Below, piece after piece: positions 2,258-50,071 of a stretch of 52,328 bases of DNA (its first letter is position 1; each line of letters begins with the position of its first letter). The notes below the pieces were generated by a model. It saw only the letters and a program-made list of their open reading frames with translations. It did not search any database and was not told the DNA's origin. Source of the DNA: an uncultured Bacteroidales bacterium (lineage in GTDB: Bacteria > Bacteroidota > Bacteroidia > Bacteroidales > Paludibacteraceae); NCBI GenBank assembly GCA_902780235.1, contig CACZEL010000012.1, positions 1-52,328 of the forward strand, given 5' to 3'. Both the position numbers and the translations under genes were made by a program.

Positions 2258-2971
2258 TCAAAGAATCTTCATGACATCGACAAATCGCGGTACGATATAG
2301 GTAGCCCCTTCATTCGTTAACTCTTTCACTCCTTCACTCGTTATCCAGATCTGGTCGATGCCTGCGGCTTTGGCGCCGGCGATGTCGGAGGTATAACTGT
2401 CGCCGATCATGACGGCTTCGTCCGCGGAGATGCCGTTGCGTTGCAGGGCAATGCGGAAGATCTCAGGCTGGGGTTTGTTGATACCGACCTCTTCGCTGAT
2501 GAGCGTGTGGGTGAAATAAGGTGCCAGACCCGAATGTTCGAACTTATAGTACTGCACCTCTTTGAAGCCGTTGCTGATGATGGTGAGCGGGTATTTGGCA
2601 GCGAGGTAGCGCACTACTTCCGCTGCATCAGGCAGGAGGCAGAAATGCTTGTTGGTCAGACGCAAGAACTCAGCGCCTATCTCGTGGGCGAGGTGCTCTA
2701 CATTAGCTGTTAGCTGTTGGCTGTTAGCTTTTATGAGCGGGCGGTAGAAACGCTCAAAATGCAATTTCTCTTTGGTCACTTCGCCGCGGCCGTACATGCC
2801 CCATAACTCGAGGTTATAGGGTTTGTAAGCGTTCAAGTAGTCCTCAAACGTCGGGTATAAGCGATCCAGATGATAAGAGACATAGATGTCCTGCAGCGCT
2901 TTGTGCTCCGCCGTTGTCCAATCACCTATCGTGTCGTCCCAATCGAGGAATATGGCTTTGTATTGTTTCAT
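2258..2971 (-). CDS. HAD-family phosphatase, YjjG-like (noncanonical pyrimidine nucleotidase)
   Basis: A 237-aa HAD subfamily IA hydrolase, start ATG 2971. HAD motifs in order are FLDWDDTIGDW (nucleophile Asp and acid Asp), ISNGF (motif II), K in VGINKPQPEIF (motif III) and MIGDSYTSDI (motif IV). The combination best matches YjjG/YfnB, which dephosphorylate non-canonical dUMP-like nucleotides to keep the pool clean; substrate assignment is inference. The cap domain contains ANSQQLTANVEHL, encoded by a 7-bp tandem repeat (2703-2730) that also occurs in several other genes here. A second, unrelated repeat-like stretch encodes EGVKELTNEGA near the C-terminus. A good promoter lies at 3017-3047. 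Confidence 0.8.
   Translation of the reverse strand: MKQYKAIFLDWDDTIGDWTTAEHKALQDIYVSYHLDRLYPTFEDYLNAYKPYNLELWGMYGRGEVTKEKLHFERFYRPLIKANSQQLTANVEHLAHEIGAEFLRLTNKHFCLLPDAAEVVRYLAAKYPLTIISNGFKEVQYYKFEHSGLAPYFTHTLISEEVGINKPQPEIFRIALQRNGISADEAVMIGDSYTSDIAGAKAAGIDQIWITSEGVKELTNEGATYIVPRFVDVMKIL
2703..2730. repeat. 7-bp array (GCYAAYA family) inside the HAD phosphatase gene
   Basis: Four adjoining heptamers on the plus strand: TTAGCTG, TTAGCTG, TTGGCTG, TTAGCTT. Read on the coding strand they give ANSQQLTAN in the cap domain. Confidence 0.85.
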
Positions 2972-3016
2972 TTGACGATTACAGTATATGATGCTTACGT
3001 CTTTGCAAATTCGCGG

Positions 3017-3047
3017 CAAAGGTACAACTTTTTTTTGAGATATACAA
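3017..3047 (-). promoter_or_regulatory. Bacteroidota-type promoter for the HAD phosphatase
   Basis: On the minus strand TTG (3047-3045), 20 bases, then TACCTTTG (3024-3017). This fits the -33 TTG / -7 TAnnTTTG consensus of the Bacteroidota primary sigma factor, with an A-tract spacer. It lies 46 bp upstream of the ATG at 2971. Confidence 0.75.
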
Positions 3048-3123
3048 GGATTTTGTCTAAAATAATCCAAAATGATTCCAAAAAGGAGAGCGATTGGAGG
3101 GAGGCGAGAGATATAAAACAAAA

Positions 3124-3330
3124 ACACCGCCAAGTGGGCACCCTGCATGTGGTGAGGAGCGGTGTCAACTAGACACCTGTAATACAAAGAAGAAACGGCA
3201 AAGCCGTGTCCGAATACCATTCGTACGAAACAGACGAAGAAAGAACCTGCCTGCTCGGTGGCGGAGCAGGCAGGAGTTCCGATAGATCGGGTTATCGATA
3301 GAGCGAAAGGGGAGATAGCGAAGGAAGAAG
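3124..3330. other. Gene-free stretch with several hairpins (possible structured RNA or terminator cluster)
   Basis: The 403-bp gap between 2972 and 3374 has no credible ORF but holds consecutive inverted repeats: ACACCGC/GCGGTGT (3124-3130, 3159-3165), ACGGC-AAA-GCCGT (3195-3207), an 11-bp stem CCTGCCTGCTC/GAGCAGGCAGG with a 7-nt loop (3246-3274), and CCGAT-AG-ATCGG (3279-3290). The 11-bp stem may end transcription of the minus-strand operon that stops at 3375. No match to a known RNA class is recognised. Confidence 0.4.
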
Positions 3331-3374
3331 ACCGCTAGCGCTAATCAGGAATATTGTATGAAAGTCACACATAG

Positions 3375-3911
3375 TTATTGACAAAGCTGTTGTGGGTTTA
3401 GTTTAATGAGTCTAATAGGCTTATTGGCTAACTCACATATTACATCGTCTATTACTAACAATTGAATCGTATCATTTGCAGATTTTTGTATATATGCTGC
3501 TTTTTCGTATGTAATTCCGCTATCTCTCATATATATAACTGAATCTTTTATTTTGTATTGCGTTGGTAAGAATTTATTTTCTTCAATATTTTTTACAACT
3601 TCCATAACTTTTGGATTATTTGTGTTTTTATCCAAAAATTCTTTTGTGTAATAACACGAAAATACGGCATTCTTACCATCAGTATAAATTAAACATTGGA
3701 GATTGTGAAAACGAGGATCCCTATATATATCGCTATCTCTTTCCAGGCATGGACTTAGTGTTGAATCCTTAAGATAGGCCATCCATTCGGACCAATCTAA
3801 TTGATAAATAGCTTGTTGTGAGAACTGCCGACAGATACGTTTCGTCGGAATACAAGAGGAGGCAAAGAGGACGATTGCCAATAATGGAAGTATTTTAAAC
3901 TTCATATTCAT
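3375..3911 (-). CDS. Hypothetical lipoprotein
   Basis: A 178-aa protein with a clear lipobox signal, MKFKILPLLAIVLFASSC (start at M1 or M3). The mature part is hydrophilic and has no motif I recognise. It is the last gene of an AT-rich minus-strand operon (small membrane protein, large anchored protein, 92-aa protein, this lipoprotein), lying only 7 bp after the preceding gene. Base composition and codon use are much more AT-rich than in the flanking housekeeping genes, which suggests horizontal acquisition. Function unknown. Confidence 0.7.
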   Translation of the reverse strand: MNMKFKILPLLAIVLFASSCIPTKRICRQFSQQAIYQLDWSEWMAYLKDSTLSPCLERDSDIYRDPRFHNLQCLIYTDGKNAVFSCYYTKEFLDKNTNNPKVMEVVKNIEENKFLPTQYKIKDSVIYMRDSGITYEKAAYIQKSANDTIQLLVIDDVICELANKPIRLIKLNPQQLCQ

Positions 3912-3918
3912 TAAATTA

Positions 3919-4197
3919 TTAGTCTATTACACACGTAAACTCACTGACTAATTCTCCATTATTTAGCCAATTCGCCCATCCTATATATTCTATCGAATTT
4001 TCCGTGTAATGATGGGATTTTAAGACACTCTCTATCATTTGAGTTATCTTTGATTTTGTCAAAGGCTCTTTTAATCCGTTTAACTCATTATGCAGGATCT
4101 CTGCAAAAGCACAATTGTCTGACGATACACTATACGAATATTCAATATTATTCGTACTAATATCTTCTATTGCTTCTAGTTTACATTTTAATTTCAT
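3919..4197 (-). CDS. Hypothetical 92-aa protein
   Basis: A soluble 92-aa protein (MKLKCKLEAIEDISTN...) with mixed alpha/beta character and no signal peptide or motif I recognise. Its start overlaps the end of the upstream 422-aa gene by 17 bp, and the lipoprotein gene follows 7 bp after its stop, so translational coupling within one operon is likely. AT-rich like its neighbours. Such small proteins next to an anchored exoprotein could be partners or chaperones, but nothing in the sequence shows this. Confidence 0.6.
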   Translation of the reverse strand: MKLKCKLEAIEDISTNNIEYSYSVSSDNCAFAEILHNELNGLKEPLTKSKITQMIESVLKSHHYTENSIEYIGWANWLNNGELVSEFTCVID

Positions 4198-5449
4198 ATT
4201 CTATTTTTTTTGCTTTTATAAACTGAATTATTGAAAGTATTAACAATAATATCCCCATAAAGAAATTGATAGCTGCAATATTTTCAATGACTTTACTTAT
4301 TTCCTTCAACTTGGCATCGTTCCAGCAATTCAAATCATAGTAATGCATATCGGATAGAATATACATAACGTCATAATCATCATTATGGACTACCATATAT
4401 TGGTAGAATTTGTTTCTTGGGTTATACTTGCTTTCCTTTCCCCATTTGTGGTATTTACTTTTTACAGGGTAGTCTATCGGCTGGAACACAGAATGTTCAA
4501 ATTTATATCTTTCTAAACCTGTCGAATTTAGCAAGAAATCAGGAATATATAGTTTTTGGGGAAATCTTCTTCTATATTCTTTTTCCAATGATTTGTTGTA
4601 TGCCGTTTGTTGTGCATAAGAAGCCAGAGGCAACTTGTTGCTAAAAGTGCTAAAAGAATATGGATTGTCCTTATCTATATCATAATATTTATTCTTGATG
4701 AGATTACTATCGGGCAAAAAAGTGTTATATGTCAAAGATTTGACATTTTTATATTTGTGTTGTTGGAATATATTGATGACATTTTCAAAAGTTTCATTTA
4801 TATCTTTCGCTATATCCCTATTTTTGCTGTCCTCGTTGTAAAAAATTCGATAAGGACGAATAGTATATTCCCAAAATAGAGCTCCAAGCCCTCCTTTCTT
4901 CACATTATCTTCCTGAAATAAAAGTGAGTCGGATAAAATGTTGTTTAGATCAAATACTTTGATACATCCAACGCCTTCTGTTGATAAAGTAAAGTTATTC
5001 CACAACAGACCATCATAAAATATGAGAGGAGATCCTGCTGCATACATACCGGAGTTTTGTTTGAATACATCAATTTCAAAGGCTTGTTGGTATGGTTTTA
5101 TAATAGAAGTGTCATTCGTATTAATAGAAAAATAACCTTTAGCATCTTCCAAGAAATAATAGTTGCTATCTCTGTCTGAATACGAAGCATACTTTCTAAG
5201 TCTCCCATCTTGGTAAATATACGATGTCGGAATTTCATGATATTCTACATCATCAAATGGAAAAACCTCAATAAAATAAGTAGTTGAGTCTGCTACATTT
5301 TGGACATTACGGACTATATCTTGGGCATAAATACTATCCCCATACCAAGAAAAACATCTTTCTTCAATAAAAATAAGTACAAATGTAGTAGCAATTAAAA
5401 CTATGGAAACTGCTAAAAGAATCCAAGCAACTTTTTTTCTTTTATTCAT
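4181..5449 (-). CDS. Hypothetical membrane-anchored protein with large external domain
   Basis: A 422-aa protein with one hydrophobic segment near each end (about residues 9-28, WILLAVSIVLIATTFVLIFI, and about 393-412, INFFMGILLLILSIIQFI). Between them are some 360 polar, Tyr- and Asn-rich residues, followed by a short basic tail KAKKIEYEIKM. The predicted arrangement is both ends inside and a big periplasmic domain. No family is recognised. The gene starts 2 bp after the stop of a 54-aa membrane protein gene and overlaps the next gene by 17 bp, so it is central to a four-gene AT-rich operon. Confidence 0.65.
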   Translation of the reverse strand: MNKRKKVAWILLAVSIVLIATTFVLIFIEERCFSWYGDSIYAQDIVRNVQNVADSTTYFIEVFPFDDVEYHEIPTSYIYQDGRLRKYASYSDRDSNYYFLEDAKGYFSINTNDTSIIKPYQQAFEIDVFKQNSGMYAAGSPLIFYDGLLWNNFTLSTEGVGCIKVFDLNNILSDSLLFQEDNVKKGGLGALFWEYTIRPYRIFYNEDSKNRDIAKDINETFENVINIFQQHKYKNVKSLTYNTFLPDSNLIKNKYYDIDKDNPYSFSTFSNKLPLASYAQQTAYNKSLEKEYRRRFPQKLYIPDFLLNSTGLERYKFEHSVFQPIDYPVKSKYHKWGKESKYNPRNKFYQYMVVHNDDYDVMYILSDMHYYDLNCWNDAKLKEISKVIENIAAINFFMGILLLILSIIQFIKAKKIEYEIKM

Positions 5450-5451
5450 AT

Positions 5452-5616
5452 TTATTCGCCATTTATAAGTTTATATAAAAATGATATTATTTCCCATAAG
5501 ATGAATAAAGGTGATAATATCATCAAAAGTGGTGCCAAAACCACAAAAATTACCACAGATAGTAATTCATTGGCATCTTTCGAATCGGTTATGTCAAAAA
5601 TTGGTATTTGAAACAT
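5452..5616 (-). CDS. Small hypothetical membrane protein (54 aa)
   Basis: A short ORF below usual length cut-offs: ATG 5616, TAA 5454-5452. It begins MFQIPIFDITDSKDANELL and continues with one long hydrophobic stretch (VVIFVVLAPLLMILSPLFIL) and a short tail ending LINGE. I accept it because it is preceded by a TACCTTTG -7 element (5655-5648), its stop lies 2 bp before the next start, and the codon use matches the downstream operon genes. It may be a partner of the 422-aa anchored protein. No known family recognised. Confidence 0.55.
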   Translation of the reverse strand: MFQIPIFDITDSKDANELLSVVIFVVLAPLLMILSPLFILWEIISFLYKLINGE

Positions 5617-5647
5617 AAATGTCTAAATGTAAAAGTTAATTTTGGCG

Positions 5648-5655
5648 CAAAGGTA
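5648..5655 (-). promoter_or_regulatory. -7 element of the AT-rich operon promoter
   Basis: The minus strand reads TACCTTTG, a perfect -7 box, 31 bp before the small membrane protein start. The expected TTG 20 bp further upstream is degenerate (ATT), so the promoter may be weak or need an activator. Confidence 0.5.
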
Positions 5656-5739
5656 CATATAATTTTTCAAATATGAATCATCTTTGCAATAATTTCCATA
5701 ACTCGCTATATTTCAGGTGATTGTTTTGTATTCTTACAT

Positions 5740-6066
5740 TCAATAGATTTTGGCAGAATTGGCTTTGCGATAAGCAATCGCATCGTCCATATCTTTAATA
5801 CTCCACGAAAGTTCTTTGAAGCCTACTGCAGGTTGACCTTTTGGAATAATGCCAAGTGCGATGTAGTTATTAAAAGTACTTTCGCTACAGTGCAGAACAT
5901 TGTCGCAAAGCCATCGTTTGCTATACCGTTTGATGCCATGATTAAGTGTGCTTAACATATCAATTGCAGCATCAATTTCTGCTTCGTCCTCCGTGCTATT
6001 TCCTGCGTCTATATCTTCAACAATACGAGCCATTATGTCACGTAGGAGTTTGAGTTTTGTGTTCAT
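5740..6066 (-). CDS. Small protein with probable helix-turn-helix (excisionase/MerR-like) domain
   Basis: A 108-aa protein. The C-terminal half, KRYSKRWLCDNVLHCSESTF followed by NNYIALGIIPKG and a MDDAIAYRK tail, resembles the helix-turn-helix plus wing of excisionase/MerR-like proteins common on Bacteroidota mobile elements (choose helix, position helix, G.IPKG wing). The N-terminal part is an acidic helix. Its ATG overlaps the 3' end of the membrane protein gene by 29 bp, so the two are coupled. A role as a DNA-binding regulator is inference. Confidence 0.5.
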   Translation of the reverse strand: MNTKLKLLRDIMARIVEDIDAGNSTEDEAEIDAAIDMLSTLNHGIKRYSKRWLCDNVLHCSESTFNNYIALGIIPKGQPAVGFKELSWSIKDMDDAIAYRKANSAKIY

Positions 6067-6838
6067 ATATATTAGTGATTTTTTGTTTTACTATTACAAA
6101 GGCTATACTAAGTATCGGCATTATATAATATGCGAGGTATAGTTGCATATTAGATAGGGGGAAAATGCGTATATTTGCATCTATGAAAGCAATGGAACAA
6201 TTAATAAAGTTCACAGCAATAAGTACCCTATGCCAAAATGGGAGGTATAGTCTTTTACTTACCAAATATACGAATATGGTTGCTAATAGCGAATTGCCCA
6301 CAGCAAAATCTAACATATAACAATATCGTATATCGAAATCAAGTAGAGCAAAAGTATTGCTTAACAAGAAGCCTACTAATTGTATGAGAGGGAACCACCG
6401 TATAAAGCCTAATAGGAACAGGTCATAACGAGTTGATGTGGTATGGCGAGTCGCACACATTATATTACCTTGTCGAACATTCTTTAGATGTATAATGGTT
6501 GCTATAGAACAACAAATAACTGAAACAATAAGCATCAATATTAATAGCCGCGTCTTTGGTATTTCTATCCAATGAAGTGAATCAAAAATTGCAATAGAGA
6601 CATTAAACAAACTATTGAATAGTAATATACGATGCCATGTGCAATATTTAAATTTGAAGCTAATTAGAAATAACAATATTAGCACGATGACTGACATTCC
6701 GCAAATGCCATCTAGAAAATAAGGAATATAGTCAAAGGCACTACTATCGCATAAATAGATGATGCTATTCAAAAGTGCCCCCATAATGCTGACTGCCGGA
6801 ATATATTTGAATAATATGAGCGTGATTTTGTTTAGCAT
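6038..6838 (-). CDS. Polytopic membrane protein with internal duplication
   Basis: A 266-aa protein with about seven or eight hydrophobic segments. Two halves carry the same motif: YCTWHRILLFNSLFNVSIAI followed by FDSLHWIEIP, and LPFWHRVLIAVNFINCSIAF followed by IDANIRIFPL. The shared pattern WHR-hL...N..N.SIA..D....I-P indicates a duplicated 3-4 helix unit. The repeated unit is followed each time by three or so hydrophobic helices. I do not recognise the family. The gene is AT-rich, overlaps the HTH-like gene downstream, and has a leader ORF and terminator-like stem upstream (6857-6955). Confidence 0.65.
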   Translation of the reverse strand: MLNKITLILFKYIPAVSIMGALLNSIIYLCDSSAFDYIPYFLDGICGMSVIVLILLFLISFKFKYCTWHRILLFNSLFNVSIAIFDSLHWIEIPKTRLLILMLIVSVICCSIATIIHLKNVRQGNIMCATRHTTSTRYDLFLLGFIRWFPLIQLVGFLLSNTFALLDFDIRYCYMLDFAVGNSLLATIFVYLVSKRLYLPFWHRVLIAVNFINCSIAFIDANIRIFPLSNMQLYLAYYIMPILSIAFVIVKQKITNIYEHKTQTPT

Positions 6839-6856
6839 ATTATAATACGTTTCATC

Positions 6857-6939
6857 AAAAAAGTGTGGGCAACTCTGTTTATATCAGGACATTCGGGCTT
6901 GGACTCCCATCACTTCCAATATACGCAGAATGCCCACAC
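6857..6939 (-). terminator. Terminator-like stem in the leader of the membrane protein gene
   Basis: On the minus strand TGTGGGCA...TGCCCACA (9-bp arms at 6939-6931 and 6871-6863) is followed at once by six T (6862-6857). The 59-nt interior contains most of a 23-codon ORF. It looks like a small RNA or attenuator ending upstream of 6838. Confidence 0.45.
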
Positions 6940-6955
6940 AGATACGTGTGAACAT
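6884..6955 (-). CDS. Possible 23-aa leader peptide
   Basis: ATG 6955, TGA 6886-6884. The peptide starts MFTRICVGIL and ends GVQARMS. It sits within the terminator-like stem upstream of the duplicated membrane protein gene. It has no run of a single amino acid codon, so classical attenuation is not obvious. It could equally be a chance reading frame in a structured small RNA. Confidence 0.3.
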   Translation of the reverse strand: MFTRICVGILRILEVMGVQARMS

Positions 6956-7053
6956 TCGCTATATTTAGGAAAGTGATTACAATGGTCCAAGATTGAATGT
7001 CTCCTTAATAAAGCAAATGCTTATTTATGTATGTTGTTTGTCTTTTGTTTTAT

Positions 7054-7154: not shown

Positions 7155-7187
7155 CTGGATTGCGAACGCGGTGCGTTCGTAATTAGG

Positions 7188-13495: not shown

Positions 13496-13527
13496 CGTTA
13501 TTACGTTATTACGTTATTACGTTATTA
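13496..13527. repeat. Perfect CGTTATTA array (4 x 8 bp)
   Basis: Four exact copies of CGTTATTA. The last copy includes the TAA stop of the DUF819 gene. The same unit recurs at 18017 and 20696. Confidence 0.9.
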
Positions 13528-14703
13528 CGAAAGGATTGCATAAATGATCACACCTAAGTAGTTTCCGATGGCATATCCGATCAGACCGATCACGAGACCG
13601 GACAACAGCACTTTTTTGTTCTTCATCGCGCCGATGACAGGCGGTACGAAAGGCGGCGAACAGAGGAGCGCCACCTGGCTGACGGTGAACAAGTCGCCCG
13701 AACATTTGGAGAGACGGCAGATGAGCAGGTGAATCAGCGCACCTACCACGATCACGTACAGCACGAAGGCGCCGATCATGATACTACCCATGTTCACGCT
13801 ATGTATATCGAAGAGCGAAGCCACGATGACCGAGAAGAGCAGAATCAATACCATACCCATCTCGAAGGTATGCGGCAGTTCACGAATCTTCTTGAAGAAC
13901 GACGCAATGATCGAGAGGGTGGTGATGGTCAGGATGACGACTAACTCATTGAGTTTGCCGGTAATCAGCAGCGCGAGCCCTGCACCGATCGCGAGGAAGA
14001 GCACACTCAGAAGGAAGGCAATCATCATTCCCGGCCAGTTCTTTTTCTGAATCAGTCCCTTGTAATCCTCGATGTCCTTGGTCATCGTCTCGGAGTCCGC
14101 TTGCCGGAACTTCGTTGCCATGTCGTCGGCGTACGGGAGGATCTTACGGAAGACCTTGAAACCGCCTCCGATGATGAAGAAGATATAGGGCGTAGTGAGT
14201 ACCATCTCAAACGCCAGCACGATGGCCATCGTCGTCGGTGTCACCCCTAATGATGCACCTAAGGCATTGAAGTTCATCGTGCCTCCGGTATAGATACCGG
14301 TCATGATCGCTACCACTTTCTCGAACTCCGGGATTCCCTGGTTACGGAAGATGAAATAGCCGGTTACGAGGGCCGTGAGTACCCCGACGATACCGCCCAC
14401 CAAGCTGAAGAGCGTCTTTGGCAATGCCTTCGTCCACAACTTAAAATCGCAGTTGAACAGCATCAAAGGGATCGCCAGCGGTACTGCGATCGACATGATG
14501 GTCGATTGGATTTTAGTGAACGAAGCCGCTACTTCGGCATCTGCACTGAAATCGACCAAGCCCGCCAGCGCCATCACGATACCGATGATATAGGCGCTCA
14601 CTACGGTGCCTAACTTGCGGAACGTGGTCCATTTCTCAAAGCAAAACATAATTACGATCGGCGACAAAAGATAGATCGCCAATACCAAATACATCTTTGT
14701 CAT
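13525..14703 (-). CDS. DUF819 family integral membrane protein
   Basis: A 392-aa protein with about ten hydrophobic helices, resembling the YjcL/DUF819 family of putative transporters (keratan sulfotransferase-like misnomers exist for this family). Glycine-rich patches such as GGIVGVLTALVTGYFIF, GIYTGGTMNFNALGASLG and CSPPFVPPVIGAMKNKK are typical of that family's substrate or ion sites. The middle has a charged cytoplasmic loop (KFRQADSETMTKDIEDYKG). The start overlaps the acyltransferase stop by 4 bp, showing translational coupling with the lipid gene. The substrate is unknown. Confidence 0.8.
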   Translation of the reverse strand: MTKMYLVLAIYLLSPIVIMFCFEKWTTFRKLGTVVSAYIIGIVMALAGLVDFSADAEVAASFTKIQSTIMSIAVPLAIPLMLFNCDFKLWTKALPKTLFSLVGGIVGVLTALVTGYFIFRNQGIPEFEKVVAIMTGIYTGGTMNFNALGASLGVTPTTMAIVLAFEMVLTTPYIFFIIGGGFKVFRKILPYADDMATKFRQADSETMTKDIEDYKGLIQKKNWPGMMIAFLLSVLFLAIGAGLALLITGKLNELVVILTITTLSIIASFFKKIRELPHTFEMGMVLILLFSVIVASLFDIHSVNMGSIMIGAFVLYVIVVGALIHLLICRLSKCSGDLFTVSQVALLCSPPFVPPVIGAMKNKKVLLSGLVIGLIGYAIGNYLGVIIYAILS

Positions 14704-15683: not shown

Positions 15684-16757
15684 CTATTTGGCAATTTTCA
15701 TTACCTCCTCTGCAATTCGTCGAGCCGAATCGGTTTGCGCCAATTGGAGGATGTTGGTATGCAGTTGTGCCAACTGTTCCTCATCTTGTATGAGTTGGAG
15801 CGCCGTTGGGATGAGTTTCTCGGCAGCCTCTGCGTCTCGCACGAGCACCGCAGCATTCTTATTGACGAGCGCCAAGGCGTTATGTGTCTGATGATCTTCG
15901 GCGACGTTAGGCGAAGGCACGAGGATGGCAGGTTTGCCAAGCAGGCATAACTCGCTGATGGACGAGGCGCCGGCACGGGAGATGACGAGGTCGGCATTGG
16001 CGTAGCGATCCGGCATGTCGGAGAGGAAGTCCAAGCACTCGACATTCGCCGGACTACCTGCGGCTTCCCATGCCGCTTTGCATTTGTCGTAATAGGTCTT
16101 ACCGGTCTGCCATACTACTTTTAGCTCTTGGCTGTTGGCTTTTAGCTTTTCGAGCGAAGCGATGACCGCTTCGTTGATCGTGCGGGCACCAAGAGAACCG
16201 CCAATGATCAATAAATTTTTAATTTTTAATTTTTCATTTTTAATTCCGGAGGTAAGGTTCTGCCGTACCGGATTACCTGTGAGGATGATCTTATCGGCAG
16301 GGAAGAAGCGCTCCATGCCTTCGTAGGCAACGCAGATCTTGGTGGCTTTGTCCTTGAGGATCTTGTTCGTCACGCCTGCAAAACCGTTCTGCTCCTGGAG
16401 CAGGATAGGGATACCCATGTTAGCCGCCGCCCACATGGCCGCACCGGACGCATATCCGCCGACGCCGACACCCACGTTGGGTTGGAACTCGCGGATGATC
16501 TTCTTCACTTGGCGAATGGACTTGGCGAGGTCGATGAGAACGGAGACGTTCTTCCACGGTTGAGCACGGTTGAAACCGCGTACAGGCAGACCGATGATCT
16601 TATACCCTGCTTGCGGTACACGCTCCATCTCCATGCGACCCAGCGCACCGATAAACAGTATCTCTGCCTCCGGATCCAACTCCTTCAGCGCGTTTGCAAT
16701 TGATACGGCGGGGAAAATATGACCGCCTGTACCTCCTCCTGAGATTAAATATTTCAT
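15684..16757 (-). CDS. murG: MurG: UDP-GlcNAc:lipid I N-acetylglucosaminyltransferase
   Basis: A 357-aa GT28 enzyme that makes lipid II on the inner face of the membrane. ISGGGTGGHIFPAVSIAN is the N-terminal glycine-rich loop, VGGYASGAAMWAA follows, GGSLGARTINEAV opens the C-terminal domain, and ISRAGASSISELCLLGKPAI is the UDP-GlcNAc site. Two different repeat arrays are translated inside it: IKNEKLKIKN just before GGSLGAR (16213-16245) and LKANSQELK (16121-16148). Both fall where homologs have short variable loops. The start overlaps the ftsW stop by 4 bp (ATGA). Confidence 0.95.
   Translation of the reverse strand: MKYLISGGGTGGHIFPAVSIANALKELDPEAEILFIGALGRMEMERVPQAGYKIIGLPVRGFNRAQPWKNVSVLIDLAKSIRQVKKIIREFQPNVGVGVGGYASGAAMWAAANMGIPILLQEQNGFAGVTNKILKDKATKICVAYEGMERFFPADKIILTGNPVRQNLTSGIKNEKLKIKNLLIIGGSLGARTINEAVIASLEKLKANSQELKVVWQTGKTYYDKCKAAWEAAGSPANVECLDFLSDMPDRYANADLVISRAGASSISELCLLGKPAILVPSPNVAEDHQTHNALALVNKNAAVLVRDAEAAEKLIPTALQLIQDEEQLAQLHTNILQLAQTDSARRIAEEVMKIAK
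16121..16148. repeat. 7-bp array (GCYAAYA family) inside murG
   Basis: Heptamers TTAGCTC, TTGGCTG, TTGGCTT and TTAGCTT. They translate on the coding strand to KANSQEL. Confidence 0.85.
16213..16245. repeat. AATTTTTA-type array inside murG
   Basis: Repeated AATTTTT/AATTTTTCA units, coding strand ATTAAAA. They translate to IKNEKLKIKN in the linker before the C-terminal domain. The same unit forms the non-coding array between ftsI and murE (22221-22255). Confidence 0.8.

Positions 16758-18047: not shown

Positions 18048-18048
<1 letters not shown>
18017..18048. repeat. CGTYATKA 8-bp array between murD and ftsW
   Basis: Units CGTTATTA, CGTCATGA, CGTCATGT and TGTCATAG run up to the murD stop region. 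The middle units form the palindrome ATGACGTCAT. Same family as 13496 and 20696. Confidence 0.8.
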
Positions 18049-19364
<1,316 letters not shown>

Positions 19365-19388
<24 letters not shown>

Positions 19389-20695: not shown

Positions 20696-20729
20696 CGTTA
20701 TTTCGTCATTACGTTATTACGTTATTACG
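20696..20729. repeat. CGTTATTA 8-bp array between murE and mraY
   Basis: CGTTATTT, CGTCATTA, CGTTATTA, CGTTATTA, CGAC. Same unit as at 13496 and 18017; fills almost the whole 43-bp junction. Confidence 0.85.
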
Positions 20730-20731: not shown

Positions 20732-22219
20732 TTAAATAAATTTTCTTACGACCTCATGGTCGTCAAAATGGTGCTTGACGCCCTTGATGATCTGGTAGTC
20801 TTCGTGTCCTTTGCCGGCGATGAGGATGACGTCATTGGCTTGAGCGAGGGTGCAAGCGGTCTGGATGGCTGTGGCACGGTCCTCGATGACAAGCGTACTG
20901 CGTAACTCATCGGCTGTCAGGCCGTCCGTCATATCTTTGAGGATATCCTTCGGCTCTTCATCCCGCGGATTATCGGATGTCAGGATCAGTTGTTCGCTGC
21001 CTTGTTTGGCGATCTTAGCCATCATCGGTCGTTTGCCTTTGTCGCGGTTTCCGCCACAACCGATCACCGTTATTAACTTTGGCTGTTGGCTATTAGCTAT
21101 TGGCTTTTTATTGCTTAGTATCTCGCGAATGGTTTGGATGACATTATCCACGGCATCCGGCGTGTGGGCATAGTCCACGATAGCCGTCCAACCTTTGGGG
21201 CTGTGGATGGTCTCAAAACGACCGTTCACGGGCTTGAGGGTAGAGAGAACGCGAAGCACCTCTAACTCATCAAAACCGAGGTTCAAAGCCGCACCATAGA
21301 TGCAGAGCAGGTTCGATACATTGAATCGTCCTACTAGCGGAACGAAGACTTCTTTGCCGTTGATACTCAGCATCATCCCGTCGAAGCCTTCTTCGAGGAT
21401 CTGCGCTTTGTAGTCTGCCAAGGAACGGGTAGAATAGGTATGAACCGCAGCCTTGCAGTTCTGCGTCATGACGAGTCCGTTCTTGTCATCTTTGTTGGTG
21501 ACCGCAAACGCGGTTTTCTTGAGATTGTCGAAGAGGCGTTTCTTGGTGTCGCGATAGTTATCGAAGGTCTTATGGTAGTCGATATGATCGCGGGTGAGGT
21601 TGGTGAACAGCGCTCCGTCAAAATCGAGTCCGGCGATACGCTCTTGGGCGATTGCGTGGGATGAGACCTCCATGAAGGCGTAGGTGCAACCGGCATCGAC
21701 CATGCGACGCAGAAGACCGTTCAATTCGATAGCATCCGGCGTGGTATGCGTAGCCGGAACGGCTTCCTCTTCGATATAATTGACGACGGTAGAGAGTAAG
21801 CCGGCTTTGTGCCCCATCGCGCGTACGAGTTTGTAGAGCAAGGTTGCGATCGTCGTCTTGCCGTTCGTGCCCGTTACGCCGACTAAGGTCAGTTGTTTGC
21901 TTGGCTCGCCGAACCACTTGCTGGCTAACAATCCCAACGCCTTATCCGTGTTCTCGACGAGGATGTAAGTTGGCTGTTGGCTATTAGCTATTGGCTGTTG
22001 GCTAATATACTCTCTTTTGGAGAGAACGACTGCTGCAGCACCTTTGGCGACACAACCATCAATGAATGTATGTCCATCTACTGCTGTGCCTACCTGGGCT
22101 ACAAACAGGTCGCCTTCGCCGATCTTACGGCTGTCGAAATGCAAACCCTTAATCTCCTTGTCCGTCGAACCGATGATCTCGATCGGTTGGATCACTGATA
22201 ATAATTCGCTCAGAAGCAT
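20732..22219 (-). CDS. murE: MurE: UDP-MurNAc-tripeptide synthetase
   Basis: A 495-aa Mur ligase adding the third stem residue. GVTGTNGKTTIATLLYKL is the P-loop, HTTPDAIELNGLLRRM and MEVSSHAIAQERIAGLDFDG the central domain (with the TTP and SSHA motifs), VDYAHTPDAVDNVI the hinge, and GCGGNRDKGKRPMMAKIA and TSDNPRDEEP the C-terminal domain. DNPR is the DAP-specific signature, so meso-diaminopimelate is the expected substrate. Two 7-bp arrays are translated in it: SQQPIANSQQPTY (21970-22004) and KKPIANSQQPK (21079-21106). Confidence 0.95.
   Translation of the reverse strand: MLLSELLSVIQPIEIIGSTDKEIKGLHFDSRKIGEGDLFVAQVGTAVDGHTFIDGCVAKGAAAVVLSKREYISQQPIANSQQPTYILVENTDKALGLLASKWFGEPSKQLTLVGVTGTNGKTTIATLLYKLVRAMGHKAGLLSTVVNYIEEEAVPATHTTPDAIELNGLLRRMVDAGCTYAFMEVSSHAIAQERIAGLDFDGALFTNLTRDHIDYHKTFDNYRDTKKRLFDNLKKTAFAVTNKDDKNGLVMTQNCKAAVHTYSTRSLADYKAQILEEGFDGMMLSINGKEVFVPLVGRFNVSNLLCIYGAALNLGFDELEVLRVLSTLKPVNGRFETIHSPKGWTAIVDYAHTPDAVDNVIQTIREILSNKKPIANSQQPKLITVIGCGGNRDKGKRPMMAKIAKQGSEQLILTSDNPRDEEPKDILKDMTDGLTADELRSTLVIEDRATAIQTACTLAQANDVILIAGKGHEDYQIIKGVKHHFDDHEVVRKFI
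21079..21106. repeat. 7-bp array (GCYAAYA family) inside murE, C-terminal domain
   Basis: TTGGCTG, TTGGCTA, TTAGCTA, TTGGCTT. Translates to PIANSQQPK just before GCGGNRDKGKR, a loop that is short in homologs. Confidence 0.85.
21970..22004. repeat. 7-bp array (GCYAAYA family) inside murE, N-terminal domain
   Basis: Five heptamers: TTGGCTG, TTGGCTA, TTAGCTA, TTGGCTG, TTGGCTA. Translates to SQQPIANSQQPT in the N-terminal domain. Confidence 0.85.
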
Positions 22220-39307: not shown

Positions 39308-39358
39308 TTAGCTTTTGGCTATTGGCTATTAGCTAACAGCTAACGGCTAACAGCTAAT
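39308..39358. repeat. 7-bp array (GCYAAYA family), both orientations, between DUF59 gene and lpxH
   Basis: Begins TTAGCTTTTGGCTATTGGCT and continues ATTAGC, then switches strand to TAACAGCTAACGGCTAACAG followed by CTAA. The two halves are complementary and could form a long hairpin. It fills the junction completely. Confidence 0.85.
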
Positions 39359-41831: not shown

Positions 41832-41833
41832 GA

Positions 41834-44696: not shown

Positions 44697-44720
44697 ATTC
44701 TTTCATTCTTTCATTCTTTA
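44697..44720. repeat. ATTCTTTC array (3 x 8 bp) at the end of pepP
   Basis: ATTCTTTC, ATTCTTTC, ATTCTTTA. The last unit includes the TAA stop of the aminopeptidase P gene. Confidence 0.85.
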
Positions 44721-46517
44721 AACTTCGATCGCCTGACATTTGTATGCCAGATACGATTTTTCGTCGTCGTTCAGGAGCGGCGACACCTCTTTATATACGC
44801 GCACGTGATAAGCGTTGAGCCAGTCGATCTCGTCTTCTGTCATCAGGGACATCTCGATCAGTTGCGTGTCGTAGAAACAGAGGGTCAGGGTTTCGAAGGC
44901 GTACCATTCGTCTTCGGTCGTCGTGGCCTTGGTCGGTTTGGCGGGAATGACGGTGATCAGGTTCTCCGTACGAATGCCCCATTTGTCAGTACGATAAATA
45001 CCCGGTTCATCGGAGATGATGTGGCCTACTTCCAGCGCCGTCGGATTATTGTCCGTACGCACGTTCTGCGGTCCTTCGTGGCAACCGAGGAAATGGCCTA
45101 CGCCGTGCCCTGTACCGTGACCGAAAGTGATACCCGCTTCCCACATGTACTGCTTGGCGAGTGCGTCCAGTTGGTTGCCTCGTGTACCTCTCGGGAAACG
45201 TGCCCGTGCCAAGGCAATATGACCTTTGAGCACGTAGGTGTAATCAAGTTTGGCCTGCTGCGGGATTCGTCCTCCGAGCCAGACAGTACGAGTGATGTCG
45301 GTCGTGCCGTCGAGGTACTGACCGCCCGAATCGAGCAGCAGCATGCCTTCGGGTTTGACGATGGCGCATTTGTCTTTGGTCGCCGCATAATGGACGATGG
45401 CGCCGTTACCTTGATAGCCGGCTATCGTACCGAAACTCTCTTCGACGAAGTTCTCGCCCATTATTCGGAACTCGTGCAGTTTCTCCATTAGTTCCCATTC
45501 GGTACGAGTCTCGCCGTGCTTGAAGGCTTTCTCTTCGAGCCATTTGAAGAAACGGGTCAATGCCACAGCATCCTGCCGCATGGCGATGCGTTCGCCCTCC
45601 AACTCAACGGCGTTCTTCTTCGCTTTGTCGATGAGGATCGGCGACTTCGTGTTGATCTTCTTGCATCCCTCCGGAATCGCTTCATAGAGGGCTTCATTCA
45701 CCCGTGCACCATCATAGAGCACGGTGCCGCTGAGGCTCGCAATATAATCGAAGACCGCCTCGTACGGTTGGATGTCGATATTGTTGAAATTCAAGTAGTT
45801 CTGCGCTGGTGAATCAACTTTTTCAGGGTTGACGAAGAGCGTACATTTATCGGCTTCGAGCACGACGTAGGAGATAACCACGGGGTTGTACTCGACATCG
45901 TTTCCGCGGATATTGAGCAGCCATGCGATCTCGTCCAAGGCGCTGACGATCAATGAGTCGCCATGCATGGCGGCTATTTTCTCGCGCATTCTCGCGAGTT
46001 TGGACTCCACGGTCTCGCCGGCAAAATCGGCAGAGTATGGATAGAGCTTGTCCGCAGGAATGGCAGGACGGTCTTCGGTCCAAAGCGGCTTGATCAGGTC
46101 GATGGATTTAAGTTCGATCTTCTCGCTCCAGTCCTTATAATCATTGACGGAGAACATCTCCGGATTGACGCCAACCTTGGCTTTTGGCTCTTGGCTGTTA
46201 GCTGTTAACTCATCGCAGATCCACTCTGTGACAGACGGGCAATCGACGTCGGACTCGCGCATTAACTCAATACCGGAATCTTCGAGTTCGATACCTGCTT
46301 GCAGGTAATAACGGCTGTCGGTCCAGAGGAGCGCTTTGTCCATCGTGACGACCATCGTACCGCTCTCGCCCGAGAAACCGCTCAACCACTGCATCTCGCA
46401 CCAATGGCTCGCCATATACTCACTCGCATGGGGATCGTTTCCCGGCACAACGTAAACGGCTACACCGTGCTCTTGCATCAAACCGCGCAAGGCGGCTATT
46501 TTCTCCTTCGTGTTCAT
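44718..46517 (-). CDS. pepP: Aminopeptidase P family (Xaa-Pro aminopeptidase, M24B)
   Basis: A 599-aa cytosolic metallopeptidase removing N-terminal residues before proline. Two creatinase-like N-terminal domains precede an M24 domain with metal ligands in LLLDSGGQYLDGTTDITRTV (D, D), HGTGHGVGHFLGCHEGPQ (H), ISDEPGIY (E) and GIRTENLI (E). The C-terminal extension matches the three-domain form. LTANSQEPKAKV in the first linker is encoded by a 7-bp array (46177-46212). Promoter at 46538-46568. Confidence 0.9.
   Translation of the reverse strand: MNTKEKIAALRGLMQEHGVAVYVVPGNDPHASEYMASHWCEMQWLSGFSGESGTMVVTMDKALLWTDSRYYLQAGIELEDSGIELMRESDVDCPSVTEWICDELTANSQEPKAKVGVNPEMFSVNDYKDWSEKIELKSIDLIKPLWTEDRPAIPADKLYPYSADFAGETVESKLARMREKIAAMHGDSLIVSALDEIAWLLNIRGNDVEYNPVVISYVVLEADKCTLFVNPEKVDSPAQNYLNFNNIDIQPYEAVFDYIASLSGTVLYDGARVNEALYEAIPEGCKKINTKSPILIDKAKKNAVELEGERIAMRQDAVALTRFFKWLEEKAFKHGETRTEWELMEKLHEFRIMGENFVEESFGTIAGYQGNGAIVHYAATKDKCAIVKPEGMLLLDSGGQYLDGTTDITRTVWLGGRIPQQAKLDYTYVLKGHIALARARFPRGTRGNQLDALAKQYMWEAGITFGHGTGHGVGHFLGCHEGPQNVRTDNNPTALEVGHIISDEPGIYRTDKWGIRTENLITVIPAKPTKATTTEDEWYAFETLTLCFYDTQLIEMSLMTEDEIDWLNAYHVRVYKEVSPLLNDDEKSYLAYKCQAIEV
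46177..46212. repeat. 7-bp array (GCYAAYA family) inside pepP
   Basis: CTTGGCTT, TTGGCTC, TTGGCTG, TTAGCTG, TTAACTC on the plus strand. The coding strand gives LTANSQEPKA. Confidence 0.8.
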
Positions 46518-46537
46518 AGTAACGCAAATTTAGGCTG

Positions 46538-46568
46538 CAAATATACAACAAAAAAAGCATATATACAA
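46538..46568 (-). promoter_or_regulatory. Promoter of pepP
   Basis: Minus strand TTG (46568-46566), 20 bases, TATATTTG (46545-46538). Divergent from the MBL promoter 28 bp away. Confidence 0.75.
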
Positions 46569-46595
46569 ATTTTAAGAATAAAATTTCAAGATTTT

Positions 46596-46626
46596 TTGCA
46601 TATATCAATTTTTTTTTGTAATTTTG
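46596..46626 (+). promoter_or_regulatory. Promoter of the MBL hydrolase operon
   Basis: TTG (46596-46598), CATATATC and a T-tract (20 bases), TAATTTTG (46619-46626). The start codon follows 16 bp later at 46643. Confidence 0.78.
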
Positions 46627-46642
46627 TGCCCGATTTGGTAAT

Positions 46643-47485
46643 ATGGAGGAAAATGAGCTCATATTCAGGTGCTTTGCCAGCGGAAGTAGCGGCAACTGTT
46701 ACTACCTTGGTACGCGTCGTCAGGGAATCCTGATCGATGCCGGCATCTCTGCGCGTTCGATTCAGAAATACTTGCGCGACATGGGGCTGGATTTCCAAAA
46801 TATCATGGGCGTGCTGATCACGCACGATCACGCCGATCATATCCGTGCCGTAGGTACGTTGGGCGAGCGTGTTCATCTGCCGATCTACACGACGGCGGAG
46901 ATCCACGAAGGTATCGATCGGAACTATGGCGTAAGGGAGAAACTGCGTACCAGTCGCCGTTATTTCGAGCGCGGCGTGGAGTGGGAGCTCTTCGGCATGC
47001 GGATCAATACCTTCCATATCGAGCACGACTCGACGGATTGTCTGGGGTACTGCATCGATTATCTGGGGCAGCGCTTTGTGCTGATGACCGATTGCGGGTC
47101 GATCAATCCCGAGATGGAGGAGTATATCCGTACCGCCAACCACTTGGTCATCGAGGCGAACCATGACGAGCATATGTTGCTCAACGGTCCGTATCCGACC
47201 TACCTCAAGGAGCGTATCTTGAGTCCCCGCGGACACCAGTCGAACGACGTGTGCGGCGAGTTGCTCGAGCGGAACTGGCACCCGGAGTTGCGTAATGTAT
47301 GGCTTTGCCATCTGTCGCTGGAGAACAACGATCCCGAAGTGGCGTACAACACGGTTGCTTCCTACCTCGAAGAGATCGATATCATCCCGGGTCAGGAAAT
47401 CTTCCTCAAAGCCCTCGATCGCACCTCGCCGAGTCCGGTGTATAGGCTCAACGATCAAATGATCGTCGATCCGTTAAAAGGTTAA
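46643..47485 (+). CDS. Metallo-beta-lactamase fold hydrolase (YycJ/WalJ-like)
   Basis: A 280-aa MBL-fold protein. FASGSSGNCYYLGTRRQGIL is the N-terminal signature of the YycJ subgroup, LITHDHADHIRAVG the HxHxDH metal motif, HDSTDCLGYCI and MTDCGS follow, and LVIEANHDEHML adds ligands. Relatives are exonuclease-like or signalling hydrolases. It starts a plus-strand operon with the GT2 gene and argS. Its final codons (DPLKG, stop TAA 47483-47485) are encoded by a GTTAAA repeat array. Confidence 0.88.
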   Translation: MEENELIFRCFASGSSGNCYYLGTRRQGILIDAGISARSIQKYLRDMGLDFQNIMGVLITHDHADHIRAVGTLGERVHLPIYTTAEIHEGIDRNYGVREKLRTSRRYFERGVEWELFGMRINTFHIEHDSTDCLGYCIDYLGQRFVLMTDCGSINPEMEEYIRTANHLVIEANHDEHMLLNGPYPTYLKERILSPRGHQSNDVCGELLERNWHPELRNVWLCHLSLENNDPEVAYNTVASYLEEIDIIPGQEIFLKALDRTSPSPVYRLNDQMIVDPLKG

Positions 47486-47528
47486 ATAGTTAAAATGGTT
47501 TTTTCTTTGAAAAAACGTTAAATTGTTA
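47472..47528. repeat. GTTAAA array with embedded hairpin, between the MBL and GT2 genes
   Basis: GTTAAAAG, GTTAAATA, GTTAAAATG, hairpin GTTTTTTC-TTT-GAAAAAAC (47498-47516), GTTAAATT, GTTAGATATG. Third example of the array-hairpin-array plan (see 10733, 39767). Confidence 0.8.
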
Positions 47529-47531
47529 GAT

Positions 47532-48266
47532 ATGGAGCGTTTAGTAATTATTCCTACCTACAACGAAAAAGAGAATATAGAGGCAATCATCACGGCTGTG
47601 ATGGAGTTGCCGCTGGAGTTCAACGTGTTGGTTATCGACGATGGTTCGCCGGATGGTACGGCCGCTATCGTGAAGAGCCTCATGGCCGGTAAATACAAAG
47701 ACCGTGTCTTCCTCATCGAACGTTCCGGTAAGTTGGGTCTCGGTACGGCTTATATCGCCGGTTTCAAGTGGGCGATCGAGCATAAAGCCGATTATATCTT
47801 CGAGATGGATGCGGACTTTTCGCATAACCCGCAGGACCTGCTCAAGCTCTATGACGCGTGTGCGAACCAAGGAGCCGACCTCGCCATCGGTAGCCGTTAC
47901 GTGACCGGTGTGAACGTGGTCAACTGGCCTATGGGACGCGTGCTGATGTCTTATTTTGCATCCAAATATGTGCGCACCGTGCTCGGCGTCAATATCCACG
48001 ACACAACCGCCGGTTTTGTGGCATACAAACGTCATACGCTCGAGACGATCGAACTCGATAAGATCCGCTTCAAAGGCTATGCCTTCCAGATCGAGATGAA
48101 GTTCACCGCCCATAAATGCGGTGCGAAGATCATCGAGGTGCCGATCATCTTCGTCAACCGTGTGCTCGGTACGTCCAAGATGTCCGGCGGCATTTTCTCC
48201 GAAGCTTTGCTCGGCGTGATCCGTCTGAAAATTAGTAGCTGGTTCAGAAAATATCCTAAATTATGA
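47532..48266 (+). CDS. Polyprenol monophosphomannose synthase-like GT2 glycosyltransferase
   Basis: A 244-aa GT2 enzyme similar to dolichol-phosphate mannose synthase (Dpm1). VIIPTYNEKENIE, VIDDGSPDGTAAIV, FEMDADFSHNPQDL (DxD-like) and AIGSRYVTG are the catalytic motifs. NRVLGTSKMSGGIFSEA is the conserved end. No extra membrane domain is fused. It transfers a sugar from GDP-mannose or a related donor to a polyprenyl phosphate. The start is ATG 47532, and its end overlaps argS by 4 bp. Confidence 0.88.
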   Translation: MERLVIIPTYNEKENIEAIITAVMELPLEFNVLVIDDGSPDGTAAIVKSLMAGKYKDRVFLIERSGKLGLGTAYIAGFKWAIEHKADYIFEMDADFSHNPQDLLKLYDACANQGADLAIGSRYVTGVNVVNWPMGRVLMSYFASKYVRTVLGVNIHDTTAGFVAYKRHTLETIELDKIRFKGYAFQIEMKFTAHKCGAKIIEVPIIFVNRVLGTSKMSGGIFSEALLGVIRLKISSWFRKYPKL

Positions 48267-50071
48267 GTTTAGAACAAAATATACAGGTATTAGTCAAAGA
48301 CGCCGTGAAGGCGCTTTATGGTGTGGAGGCAAGTGACGCGCAGATTCAGTTGCAGAAGACGCGTCCTGAGTTCGAAGGCAATATCACCGTCGTGGTCTTC
48401 CCCTTCGTCAAACTCGCCCGCAAAGCCCCTGCGCAGGTCGCTGAGGAAATAGGCCAACAGCTAATAGCTAACGGCCAAGGTCTTGTAGCCAAGTACAATG
48501 CGGTACAGGGCTTCCTCAACCTCGTGATCGACGATGCTTTCTGGGTAAAGCAACTCGAAGCCATCGATGCGGACGAAAACTACGGAAAAGGCCAACAGCC
48601 AACAGCTAACGGTCAACAGCCATTGATGATGGTTGAGTACTCGTCCCCGAACACGAACAAACCCCTTCACCTTGGTCACGTGCGTAATAACCTTTTAGGT
48701 TATTCGATCGCGAAGATCCAAGAGGCGAACGGATGGAAAGTAGTCAAGACCAATATCGTCAACGACCGCGGCATCCATATCTGCAAATCCATGCTTGCTT
48801 GGCTTAAGTTCGGTAACGGCGAGACCCCGGAGACCAGCGGTAAGAAAGGGGATCACTTGATCGGCGACTACTACGTGCGTTTTGATAAAGAGTACAAAGC
48901 GCAGATAGCTGAACTCATGGCGGCAGGCAAGGATGAAGAGACCGCGAAGAAGGAAGCTCCGTTGATGCTCGAGGCACAAGAGATGCTCCGCAAATGGGAA
49001 GCGAACGATCCTGAGATCCGTGCCCTGTGGGCGAAGATGAACGAATGGGTTTATGCCGGTTTTGATGAGACCTACCAACGCATGGGCGTGTCGTTCGATA
49101 AGATCTATTACGAGTCGAACACCTACCTCGAGGGTAAGTCCGAAGTAGAGAAAGGTCTGGCGGCAGGTCAGTTCTACCGCCGCGAAGATGGATCCGTTTG
49201 GGCGGACCTCACCAAGGACGGTTTGGACGAGAAACTGCTGCTCCGTTCCGATGGCACTTCGGTCTATATGACCCAAGATATCGGTACGGCGAAGCTTCGC
49301 TTCCAGGACTATCCGATCGATAAGATGGTGTATGTGGTCGGTAACGAGCAGGAGTACCACTTCAAGGTGCTGTCTATCCTGTTGGATCGCCTCGGATTCC
49401 CCTTCGGTAAGGAACTCGTGCATTTCTCTTACGGCATGGTTGAACTGCCGAATGGTAAGATGAAGAGCCGCGAAGGAACTGTCGTTGACGCCGACGATCT
49501 CATGGATAAGATGATCGAAGATGCGAAGGAAATCAGCAAAGATAAGGTGAACACGCTGCAGGGTATTACCGAGGCAGAAGCCGACGAGATCGCTCGCAAG
49601 GTAGGCTTAGGCGCACTCAAATACTTCATCTTGAAGGTTGATCCGCGCAAGAACATGCTCTTCAATCCCGCCGAGTCCATCGATTTCAACGGTAACACGG
49701 GTCCGTTCATCCAATACACCTATGCGCGTATTCAGTCCGTGCTGAGAAAATCGGGAGTGGAACCTATGAATCACGGGGTAATCCTAGACCATACACAGGG
49801 GCTTGACCTGAAAGAACTCACCCTTATACAGCGTCTTTGTGACTATCCCGCTATCGTGCGCAATGCCGGCGATAACTTCTCTCCGGCGGTTATCTGTAAC
49901 TACGCGTACGATCTGGCGTGCGACTTCAACTCGTTCTACCACGATCTGAGTATCCTGAACGAAAAAGACGAGCAGAAACGGGCTCTCCGTCTCTTGCTCG
50001 CCAAGAATGTCGCCAAAGTGCTGGCTTCTGCCATGTCGCTCCTTGGCATCGAGATGCCGGAACGCATGTAA
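48263..50071 (+). CDS. argS: ArgS: arginyl-tRNA synthetase
   Basis: A 602-aa class I synthetase charging tRNA-Arg. SSPNTNKPLHLGHVRNNLLG contains the HIGH-type motif (HLGH), DIGTAKLRF and the KMSKS-like KMKSREGTVV. The N-terminal additional domain holds two 7-bp array insertions: QQLIANGQGLV (48452-48479) and GKGQQPTANGQQPLMM (48591-48621). Both lie in loops that are short in homologs. An essential enzyme, so these inserts must be tolerated. It is the last gene of its operon and converges with the flavoprotein gene. Confidence 0.95.
   Translation: MSLEQNIQVLVKDAVKALYGVEASDAQIQLQKTRPEFEGNITVVVFPFVKLARKAPAQVAEEIGQQLIANGQGLVAKYNAVQGFLNLVIDDAFWVKQLEAIDADENYGKGQQPTANGQQPLMMVEYSSPNTNKPLHLGHVRNNLLGYSIAKIQEANGWKVVKTNIVNDRGIHICKSMLAWLKFGNGETPETSGKKGDHLIGDYYVRFDKEYKAQIAELMAAGKDEETAKKEAPLMLEAQEMLRKWEANDPEIRALWAKMNEWVYAGFDETYQRMGVSFDKIYYESNTYLEGKSEVEKGLAAGQFYRREDGSVWADLTKDGLDEKLLLRSDGTSVYMTQDIGTAKLRFQDYPIDKMVYVVGNEQEYHFKVLSILLDRLGFPFGKELVHFSYGMVELPNGKMKSREGTVVDADDLMDKMIEDAKEISKDKVNTLQGITEAEADEIARKVGLGALKYFILKVDPRKNMLFNPAESIDFNGNTGPFIQYTYARIQSVLRKSGVEPMNHGVILDHTQGLDLKELTLIQRLCDYPAIVRNAGDNFSPAVICNYAYDLACDFNSFYHDLSILNEKDEQKRALRLLLAKNVAKVLASAMSLLGIEMPERM
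48452..48479. repeat. 7-bp array (GCYAAYA family) inside argS, site 1
   Basis: GCCAACA, GCTAATA, GCTAACG, GCCAAGG on the plus (coding) strand, read QLIANGQ. Orientation matches the other copies relative to transcription. Confidence 0.85.
48591..48621. repeat. 7-bp array (GCYAAYA family) inside argS, site 2
   Basis: GCCAACA, GCCAACA, GCTAACG, GTCAACA, GCCA on the coding strand, read GQQPTANGQQP just before the HLGH region. Confidence 0.85.

Follow-up and report, generated by a model that had tools for sequence, protein, structure and literature searches.

The window analysed here is a stretch of 52,328 nt within contig C12 (CACZEL010000012.1) of the draft genome of an uncultured Bacteroidales bacterium of the family Paludibacteraceae (assembly GCA_902780235.1), and its subject is a family of tandem arrays of the 7-bp unit GCYAAYA that are translated in frame inside conserved enzymes. 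A preliminary description of the window had listed nine such arrays, eight of them within genes. The array search located every one again, with 33 dimer matches (up to two mismatches) against a mean of 2.64 (s.d. 1.63) in 100 shuffles, and placed eight inside genes that Pfam identifies, in agreement with the names first given, as encoding a HAD hydrolase, MurG, MurD, MurE, an M24 peptidase/creatinase and ArgS; the ninth, at 39308, is intergenic. For all eight in-gene arrays the coding strand is the one that carries GCYAAYA, in line with the common orientation first described, and the ninth has an inverted partner at 39325-39358 that was absent from the earlier account. Beyond the window, species-specific heptamer arrays in this genus repeatedly occupy identical tolerant protein segments, with their orientation sorted by hydropathy. 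The features of the window are listed below, with strand in brackets.

2258-3220 (-), gene for a HAD-family hydrolase (Pfam); GCYAANR array at 2702-2733 (-), sense
15684-16757 (-), murG (Pfam); array at 16121-16147 (-), peptide KLKANSQELK
18048-19388 (-), murD (Pfam); array at 18229-18252 (-), peptide NQELIANSQ
21079-21105 (-), array at murE site 2, a loop of the C-terminal domain; peptide KPIANSQQPK
21969-22004 (-), array at murE site 1, a loop of the N-terminal domain; peptide ISQQPIANSQQPT
39308-39358 (no strand), intergenic inverted pair (hairpin element) with arms at 39308-39335 and 39325-39358
44718-46517 (-), gene for an M24/creatinase-type peptidase, PepP-like (Pfam); array at 46177-46207 (-), peptide LTANSQEPKAK
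48263-50071 (+), argS (Pfam); array of site 1 at 48453-48478 (+)
48591-48622 (+), array of argS site 2, a length-variable site; peptide GQQPTANGQQP

The array at murE site 1 includes the entire 27-bp array of site 2. A weaker match at 6282-6304 (score 23) fell under the array cut-off, and an Rfam scan of the window returned one tRNA and nothing else. The frame independence proposed for the units was supported: since 7 and 3 have no common factor, three units yield one heptapeptide in any frame.

Abundance and unit of the arrays

The genome is a draft of 2,278,966 bases in 58 contigs, estimated to be 78.6% complete. Trimer matches (overlapping, up to three mismatches) numbered 703 genome-wide against 18 for the reversed pattern, which bears out the genome-wide excess that had been anticipated. 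A finder built on the GCYAAYA consensus was applied to a sample of 1,220,862 bp with 804 genes, which was not random, some stretches having been picked where trimer hits had been seen; genes and start sites were called with a simple script of our own. The sample held 175 arrays, and four control words gave 0, 1, 4 and 9. A fifth, GYCAAYA, gave 41 arrays against 56 in the first sample, but it is not an independent control, because the same arrays match both words. Wholly within genes lay 84 of the 175, a further 30 crossed a gene end and 61 were intergenic. Sense in-gene arrays span 19-125 nt, and in-gene runs are mostly of 24-40 nt. Head-to-tail 7-bp units thus recur at many loci, far over chance, as is characteristic of heptamer repeats.

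Seven is also the leading tandem period of this genome irrespective of the word, with 314 arrays in 1.22 Mb against 75 of period 8, and none of period 7 in one Markov-1 simulation. The GCYAAYA family accounts for 67 of 266 period-7 arrays, alongside many other heptamers. Within the window, ATTTACC/ATTTGGTC-like arrays of 15, 22 or 28 bp stand at 19365, 24358, 25271 and 42428, several of them at gene starts, and 8-bp arrays (CGTTATTA) occupy 13496-13529 and 20696-20729.

The unit is better written GCYAANR, as departures from GCYAAYA in neighbouring units fall mainly at positions 6 and 7. Neighbour units entered this comparison if no more than one core position was mismatched (149 of 248; 62 of 106), and the way they were chosen means that each departs somewhere from GCYAAYA; among the 149, changes numbered 6 at G1, 10 at C2, 3 at A4 and 3 at A5, and 60 at position 7. 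In-gene units retained the core at 95 of 96 synonymous third positions, with positions 3 and 6 varying, although location in an open frame forces C at some unit positions by construction. Neighbouring units are not the near-identical copies expected of slippage: lag-7 identity is about 0.82 and the median perfect run is 14-16 nt. Agreement of adjacent units at position 3 was 0.565 (0.526 expected) in intergenic arrays and 0.426 (0.486 expected) in genes, and at position 6 it was 0.502 (0.377 expected) and 0.415 (0.304 expected), respectively. The agreement at position 6, being above expectation, is what slippage predicts. Degenerate units with a kept core are the strangest result of the analysis, since plain slippage should leave neighbours nearly identical and copying should leave a shared unit order.

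Peptide chemistry and turnover among relatives

The common orientation described for the window holds there without exception, but it is not absolute genome-wide: of 84 in-gene arrays, 77 are sense and 7 antisense, with spacer arrays split 30 and 31 by strand. Stop codons were ruled out as an explanation of this preference. Of the frames of intergenic arrays, 8.7% are open in the sense direction and 30% in the antisense direction; the sense strand is therefore the more stop-prone, and the bias runs opposite to what stop codons would favour. The coding bias points to the encoded peptide, with an insertion bias relative to transcription as the alternative. The peptides of sense arrays are polar, with runs such as ANSQQPT. 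By inspection, which is also the basis on which signal peptides were assigned throughout, five of the seven antisense arrays lie in hydrophobic segments, four as signal-peptide-like cores and one as a transmembrane-like stretch, and two are of other kinds; the putative export-signal cores include MKKILAIGYWLLAVSFCAYAQ and MKKFLFILLAISYWPLALAQ. Four of the seven antisense arrays fall within the first 25 residues, compared with 1 of the 77 sense arrays. When all in-gene arrays with periods of 7, 14 or 21 bp were considered, hydrophobic ones made up 17 of the 27 in the N-terminal 25 residues and 5 of the 177 at later positions (Fisher, 6.6e-14), with both the N-terminal cut (25 residues) and the hydropathy cut (0.8) set after inspection of the data. 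In 400 kb of a congener, G034, the figures for arrays of the same periods were 5 of 8 and 1 of 48 (8e-5).

The polar arrays appear to lie in segments that tolerate changes in length. The preliminary description had held that the units sit in loops that are short in homologs, and this was upheld for MurE, for which it was tested on the best 30 of 41 genus matches, our genome included. Both repeat sites are loops that are short in most of the 30, and site 2 is short in 12 of 18 congeners, the others carrying GGACAAA, CTCAAAC or a palindrome-like sequence. Assignments of heptamers to congeners at MurE, MurD, ArgS, the signal peptide and the spacers, and the length comparisons, were made by eye. 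AlphaFold modelled MurE from 27 congener sequences with a mean pLDDT of 85.8, and the inserts, at about residues 72-84 and 372-381, are predicted as coil between regular elements with block pLDDT of 63 and 64; two other blocks score below both. Solved structures of MurE homologues place the family, and the loops were not mapped on them. That the heptapeptides are not ancestral was likewise sustained within the genus, with none such among the 30 members.

Comparison with G029, the closest relative by MurE and by the locus labelled sec1 (not by ArgS), and with other congeners revealed that the same sites hold different words in some of them. Relative to G029, MurE site 2 differs by 24 nt and the murG array segment is longer by 6 nt, and the MurD array is absent from G029. 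At the MurD site, G002 and G004 have an array of the related GCYAAYR type and other congeners have AGTCGAA, ACAATTN or a palindrome, with heptamers other than GCYAAYR in G021, G064 and G030. At argS site 1 several congeners are equal in length with a different 7-periodic sequence, and at site 2 some carry a palindrome-like sequence. The same holds for a putative export signal: the exported protein at C11:56624-57730 carries a GCYAAYA array in its signal peptide, and its homologs have TTTTCAA, TCTGTAC or CTTTGTA in theirs in about six of the 19 congeners shown. At sec1, G029 has a seed of about 1.5 units where our genome carries an array.

Trimer counts (up to two mismatches) were 0 to 60 in 36 congeners against 514 in our genome, and the word TGGACAA, which matched in 30 of the 41 genomes, is distributed differently. 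Period-7 arrays as such are also present in the genus, with 44 in 353 kb of 18 congeners (one region, around murE), and are rare in 20 genomes from other families of the order, with 2 in 276 kb (stretches of 0.4-20 kb). Across the phylum, the trimer (up to one mismatch) occurred in 29 of 198 genomes, our own included, mostly in few copies. Named genomes contained exact 31-mers in at least 118 stretches; among the matches listed, 47 of 80 were Bacteroidota by title and the remainder came from many phyla, and RUG14556 (Bacteroidales; 75% over 3.6 kb) was among the nearest named loci.

Relatives carry other repeats as well. The reversed control of GCYAAYA gave 289 matches in G058, of the same order, in which another heptamer word has probably expanded. 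The longest-open-reading-frame (ORF) N-terminus of MurD in G029 (L072:2234-3586; MYKKISNMSKSNQSSLPCGESRRG) looks derived from a palindromic repeat, and the murD-mraY spacer of that genome (contig C19) holds a DUF559/restriction endonuclease-like ORF (PF04480; L072:3562-3942) flanked by CCTCCCC/GGGAGGG palindromes. By eye, similar spacer inserts are present in G020, G034 and G064 and none in the window, and 11-bp arrays upstream of mraZ (for example, CTAATCACCTA and AAGAACTAAAG) swap between species.

Spacer hairpins and known repeat systems

Repetitive extragenic palindromic (REP) elements are short inverted repeats that occur in spacers in many copies, and the intergenic GCYAAYA arrays resemble them. 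Arrays were paired in the inverted '-+' order 27 times, with 26 of the pairs not wholly within one called gene and only one wholly inside a gene, and in the '+-' order once. The 54 hairpin arms have common outer ends, GCYAAWGT, and share unit order (55 against 8.9 in shuffles, a value reached by 0 of 300). A 48-bp consensus matched 17 times in our genome, once in G034 and not at all in the other 39 congeners, and two of the copies, C12:39311 and C1:75775, do not differ at all across those 48 bp. G029 has an empty site opposite the copy in the window, with no clear target-site duplication at this one site (by eye). Between codirectional genes, 17 hairpins have one orientation and 6 the opposite by a crude rule, under which at least one copy, C2:70387, looks misassigned. 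The intergenic hairpins are copied elements, present in multiple copies with inverted-repeat ends outside genes in the manner of REP elements or miniature inverted-repeat transposable elements (MITEs). Under strict criteria, 522 kb of our genome yielded 4 7-periodic hairpins and 400 kb of G034 yielded 1; most GCYAAYA pairs escape such a search, as their arms differ at degenerate positions. Three of the four belong to a second word (AAYGACC-like) with the two-arm layout and lie within about 2 kb of one another at C5:52483-54525.

The copying that had been proposed for the arrays in general stands for the hairpins, with their shared unit order and 48-bp consensus, and found no clear support for the arrays in genes. 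The flanks of the latter show no conservation at 73 right and 76 left ends. Runs of three units were shared by 33 pairs against a mean of 28.9 in frame-respecting shuffles (reached by 86 of 300), and runs of four were in slight excess, 4 against 1.3 (13 of 300), so that verbatim copying between genes is not clear beyond such shuffles, the two MurE arrays being the exception. Nor do the in-gene arrays form a long palindrome of 105-146 bp, as the Rickettsia palindromic elements (RPEs) do. That a single palindromic MITE- or REP-like element inserts everywhere, the in-gene arrays being its transposase-mobilised arms, is unlikely in our view: the common hairpin ends and unit order, the empty site in G029 and the slight excess of four-unit runs are in its favour, but the gene arrays lack such flanks and any clear shared order, and the same sites hold different heptamers in congeners. 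Spread driven by the Y1 transposase (PF01797, RAYT) was set aside, since no match was present in our 78.6%-complete genome; 16 of 41 genus genomes have one (E<=0.001).

Precedents exist for each half of these observations, namely heptamer repeats (PMC4679880) and repeat elements that code for protein or form signal peptides (PMC2229807). TAACTGA heptamer direct repeats, patchy among species, occur in Beggiatoaceae, Cyanobacteria and five Bacteroidetes, mostly in intergenic positions immediately before gene starts; in the forward direction the units impose stops, and those within ORFs lie mainly at protein ends, including one MurG near its end (MacGregor, 2015; PMC4679880). They are like our arrays in being tandem heptamers at many loci, some within ORFs. 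In contrast to TAACTGA repeats as portrayed there, our arrays lie mid-enzyme, differ in word between species at one site, are signal-peptide-like when antisense and include copied hairpins. Among long simple sequence repeats, heptanucleotides are the most abundant class in most rich genomes, and slippage has been proposed for them (Mrazek et al., 2007, as described in PMC4679880); going by that summary, they differ from our arrays, whose units show degeneracy at fixed positions and turn up again at identical protein sites.

As described in PMC2229807, RPEs are palindromes of 105-146 bp that stand in frame within conserved enzymes and are possibly near-neutral. Our arrays likewise place repeat DNA in frame inside conserved proteins, but as one-directional heptamer runs, mostly of 24-40 nt. 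The same source describes a 168-bp Yersinia repeat, YPAL/RU-2, that supplies part of a signal peptide; our arrays, by inspection, make a similar contribution, in several proteins, with several heptamer words and in the two species examined. REP hairpins, and MITE hairpins as characterized there (PMC2229807), share with ours short inverted repeats and many copies in spacers. Our hairpins are unlike them in that the arms are themselves heptamer arrays and the genome has no Y1 transposase match. Dispersed protein-coding repeats with a 25-residue amphipathic motif are also partly in membrane-targeted proteins, but they lie in ORFs without assigned function and have no heptamer DNA word. Among the matches listed, a literature search retrieved none for heptamer-derived loops or signal peptides or for a degenerate-core unit; the word GCYAAYA itself was not searched, and subscription journals were mostly outside coverage.

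Proposed origin and sorting of the arrays

The observations to be accounted for are the abundance of the arrays, their orientation and hydropathy, the reuse of sites, the turnover between species, the copied hairpins and the conserved core. We consider it rather probable that they stem from a lineage-specific process that generates heptamers, with sites and orientation filtered by the resulting peptide. An active process in this genome and genus would build tandem arrays of 7-bp words, and the favoured words would differ by species, GCYAANR being one of those in our genome. Arrays would start or land in length-tolerant segments, that is, spacers, protein loops and signal peptides, and would persist in a gene as long as their net length preserves the frame and they bring no in-frame stop. 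Orientation would then be sorted by purifying selection on the peptide, with polar ANSQQPT runs in enzymes from the A-rich sense strand and LLAVGYW-like hydrophobic signal-peptide cores from the T-rich strand. Inverted pairs of the words are frequent in spacers, where at least one hairpin element of about 50-70 bp has been copied around the genome. Polymerase slippage or template switching may make the arrays, selection rather than insertion bias presumably sorts their orientation, and the identity of the core could be kept by short-patch exchange between arrays or by selection at the nucleotide level.

Several points weigh against such a process. Position 3 is near-random between neighbours, which plain slippage does not predict. 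In-gene and intergenic arrays showed no measurable difference in regularity (p=0.13), whereas slippage should endanger genes. Length differences from relatives, judged by eye, are often not multiples of 7 or 21, which suggests that arrays replace sequence rather than simply insert. No enzyme for the building of heptamers was identified, and the genome is a draft with 78.6% completeness. A bolder version, which we regard as possible though doubtful, is word-specific writing throughout the genus, in which each species would write its own degenerate heptamers (here GCYAANR) unit by unit into permissive DNA, as opposed to copying whole arrays, perhaps off a template in which C/T (G-U-like) ambiguity is tolerated; this would continually rewrite the loops and signal peptides of ordinary proteins, and repeat DNA would be a standing source of new export signals.

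Selection could instead act at the nucleotide level, if GCYAA at every 7 bp were recognized, in mRNA or in DNA, by a protein or RNA particular to the species and were maintained for that reason. The almost complete retention of the core at synonymous sites, with positions 3 and 6 free, and the 77:7 sense bias are consistent with this. We nevertheless judge it improbable, as the same sites in most congeners lack the word or have other words, antisense arrays are present in putative signal peptides, and single words outside arrays, with the arrays masked, are only weakly enriched (observed/expected of 1.33, compared with 0.87, 0.96 and 1.27 for three control words). Slippage that arises locally and independently from chance seeds, without any preferred word across the genome, would agree with the seed at sec1 of G029, the many different heptamers and the agreement of neighbours at position 6, but one word family makes up about a quarter of the period-7 arrays and position 3 is close to random between neighbours, and we hold this explanation to be decidedly improbable. 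A drive resembling that of DNA uptake sequences, with biased uptake and recombination spreading a dialect word and inverted pairs at gene ends, is most improbable: species-specific words, inverted pairs in spacers and permissive coding sites may recall the behaviour of such sequences, but the lone motif is not strongly over-represented genome-wide once arrays are masked (the same 1.33), and uptake words are not known to form 7-bp tandem arrays.

The degenerate, core-conserved unit poses a concrete question of how such arrays are manufactured. If the proposed process is real, evolution has carried out its own insertion scanning and signal-peptide swapping in essential enzymes and across dozens of related species. 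The arrays would then map loops that tolerate change, the orientation of DNA would be sorted by the chemistry of the peptide that it encodes, and there would be a testable route for the origin of export signals.

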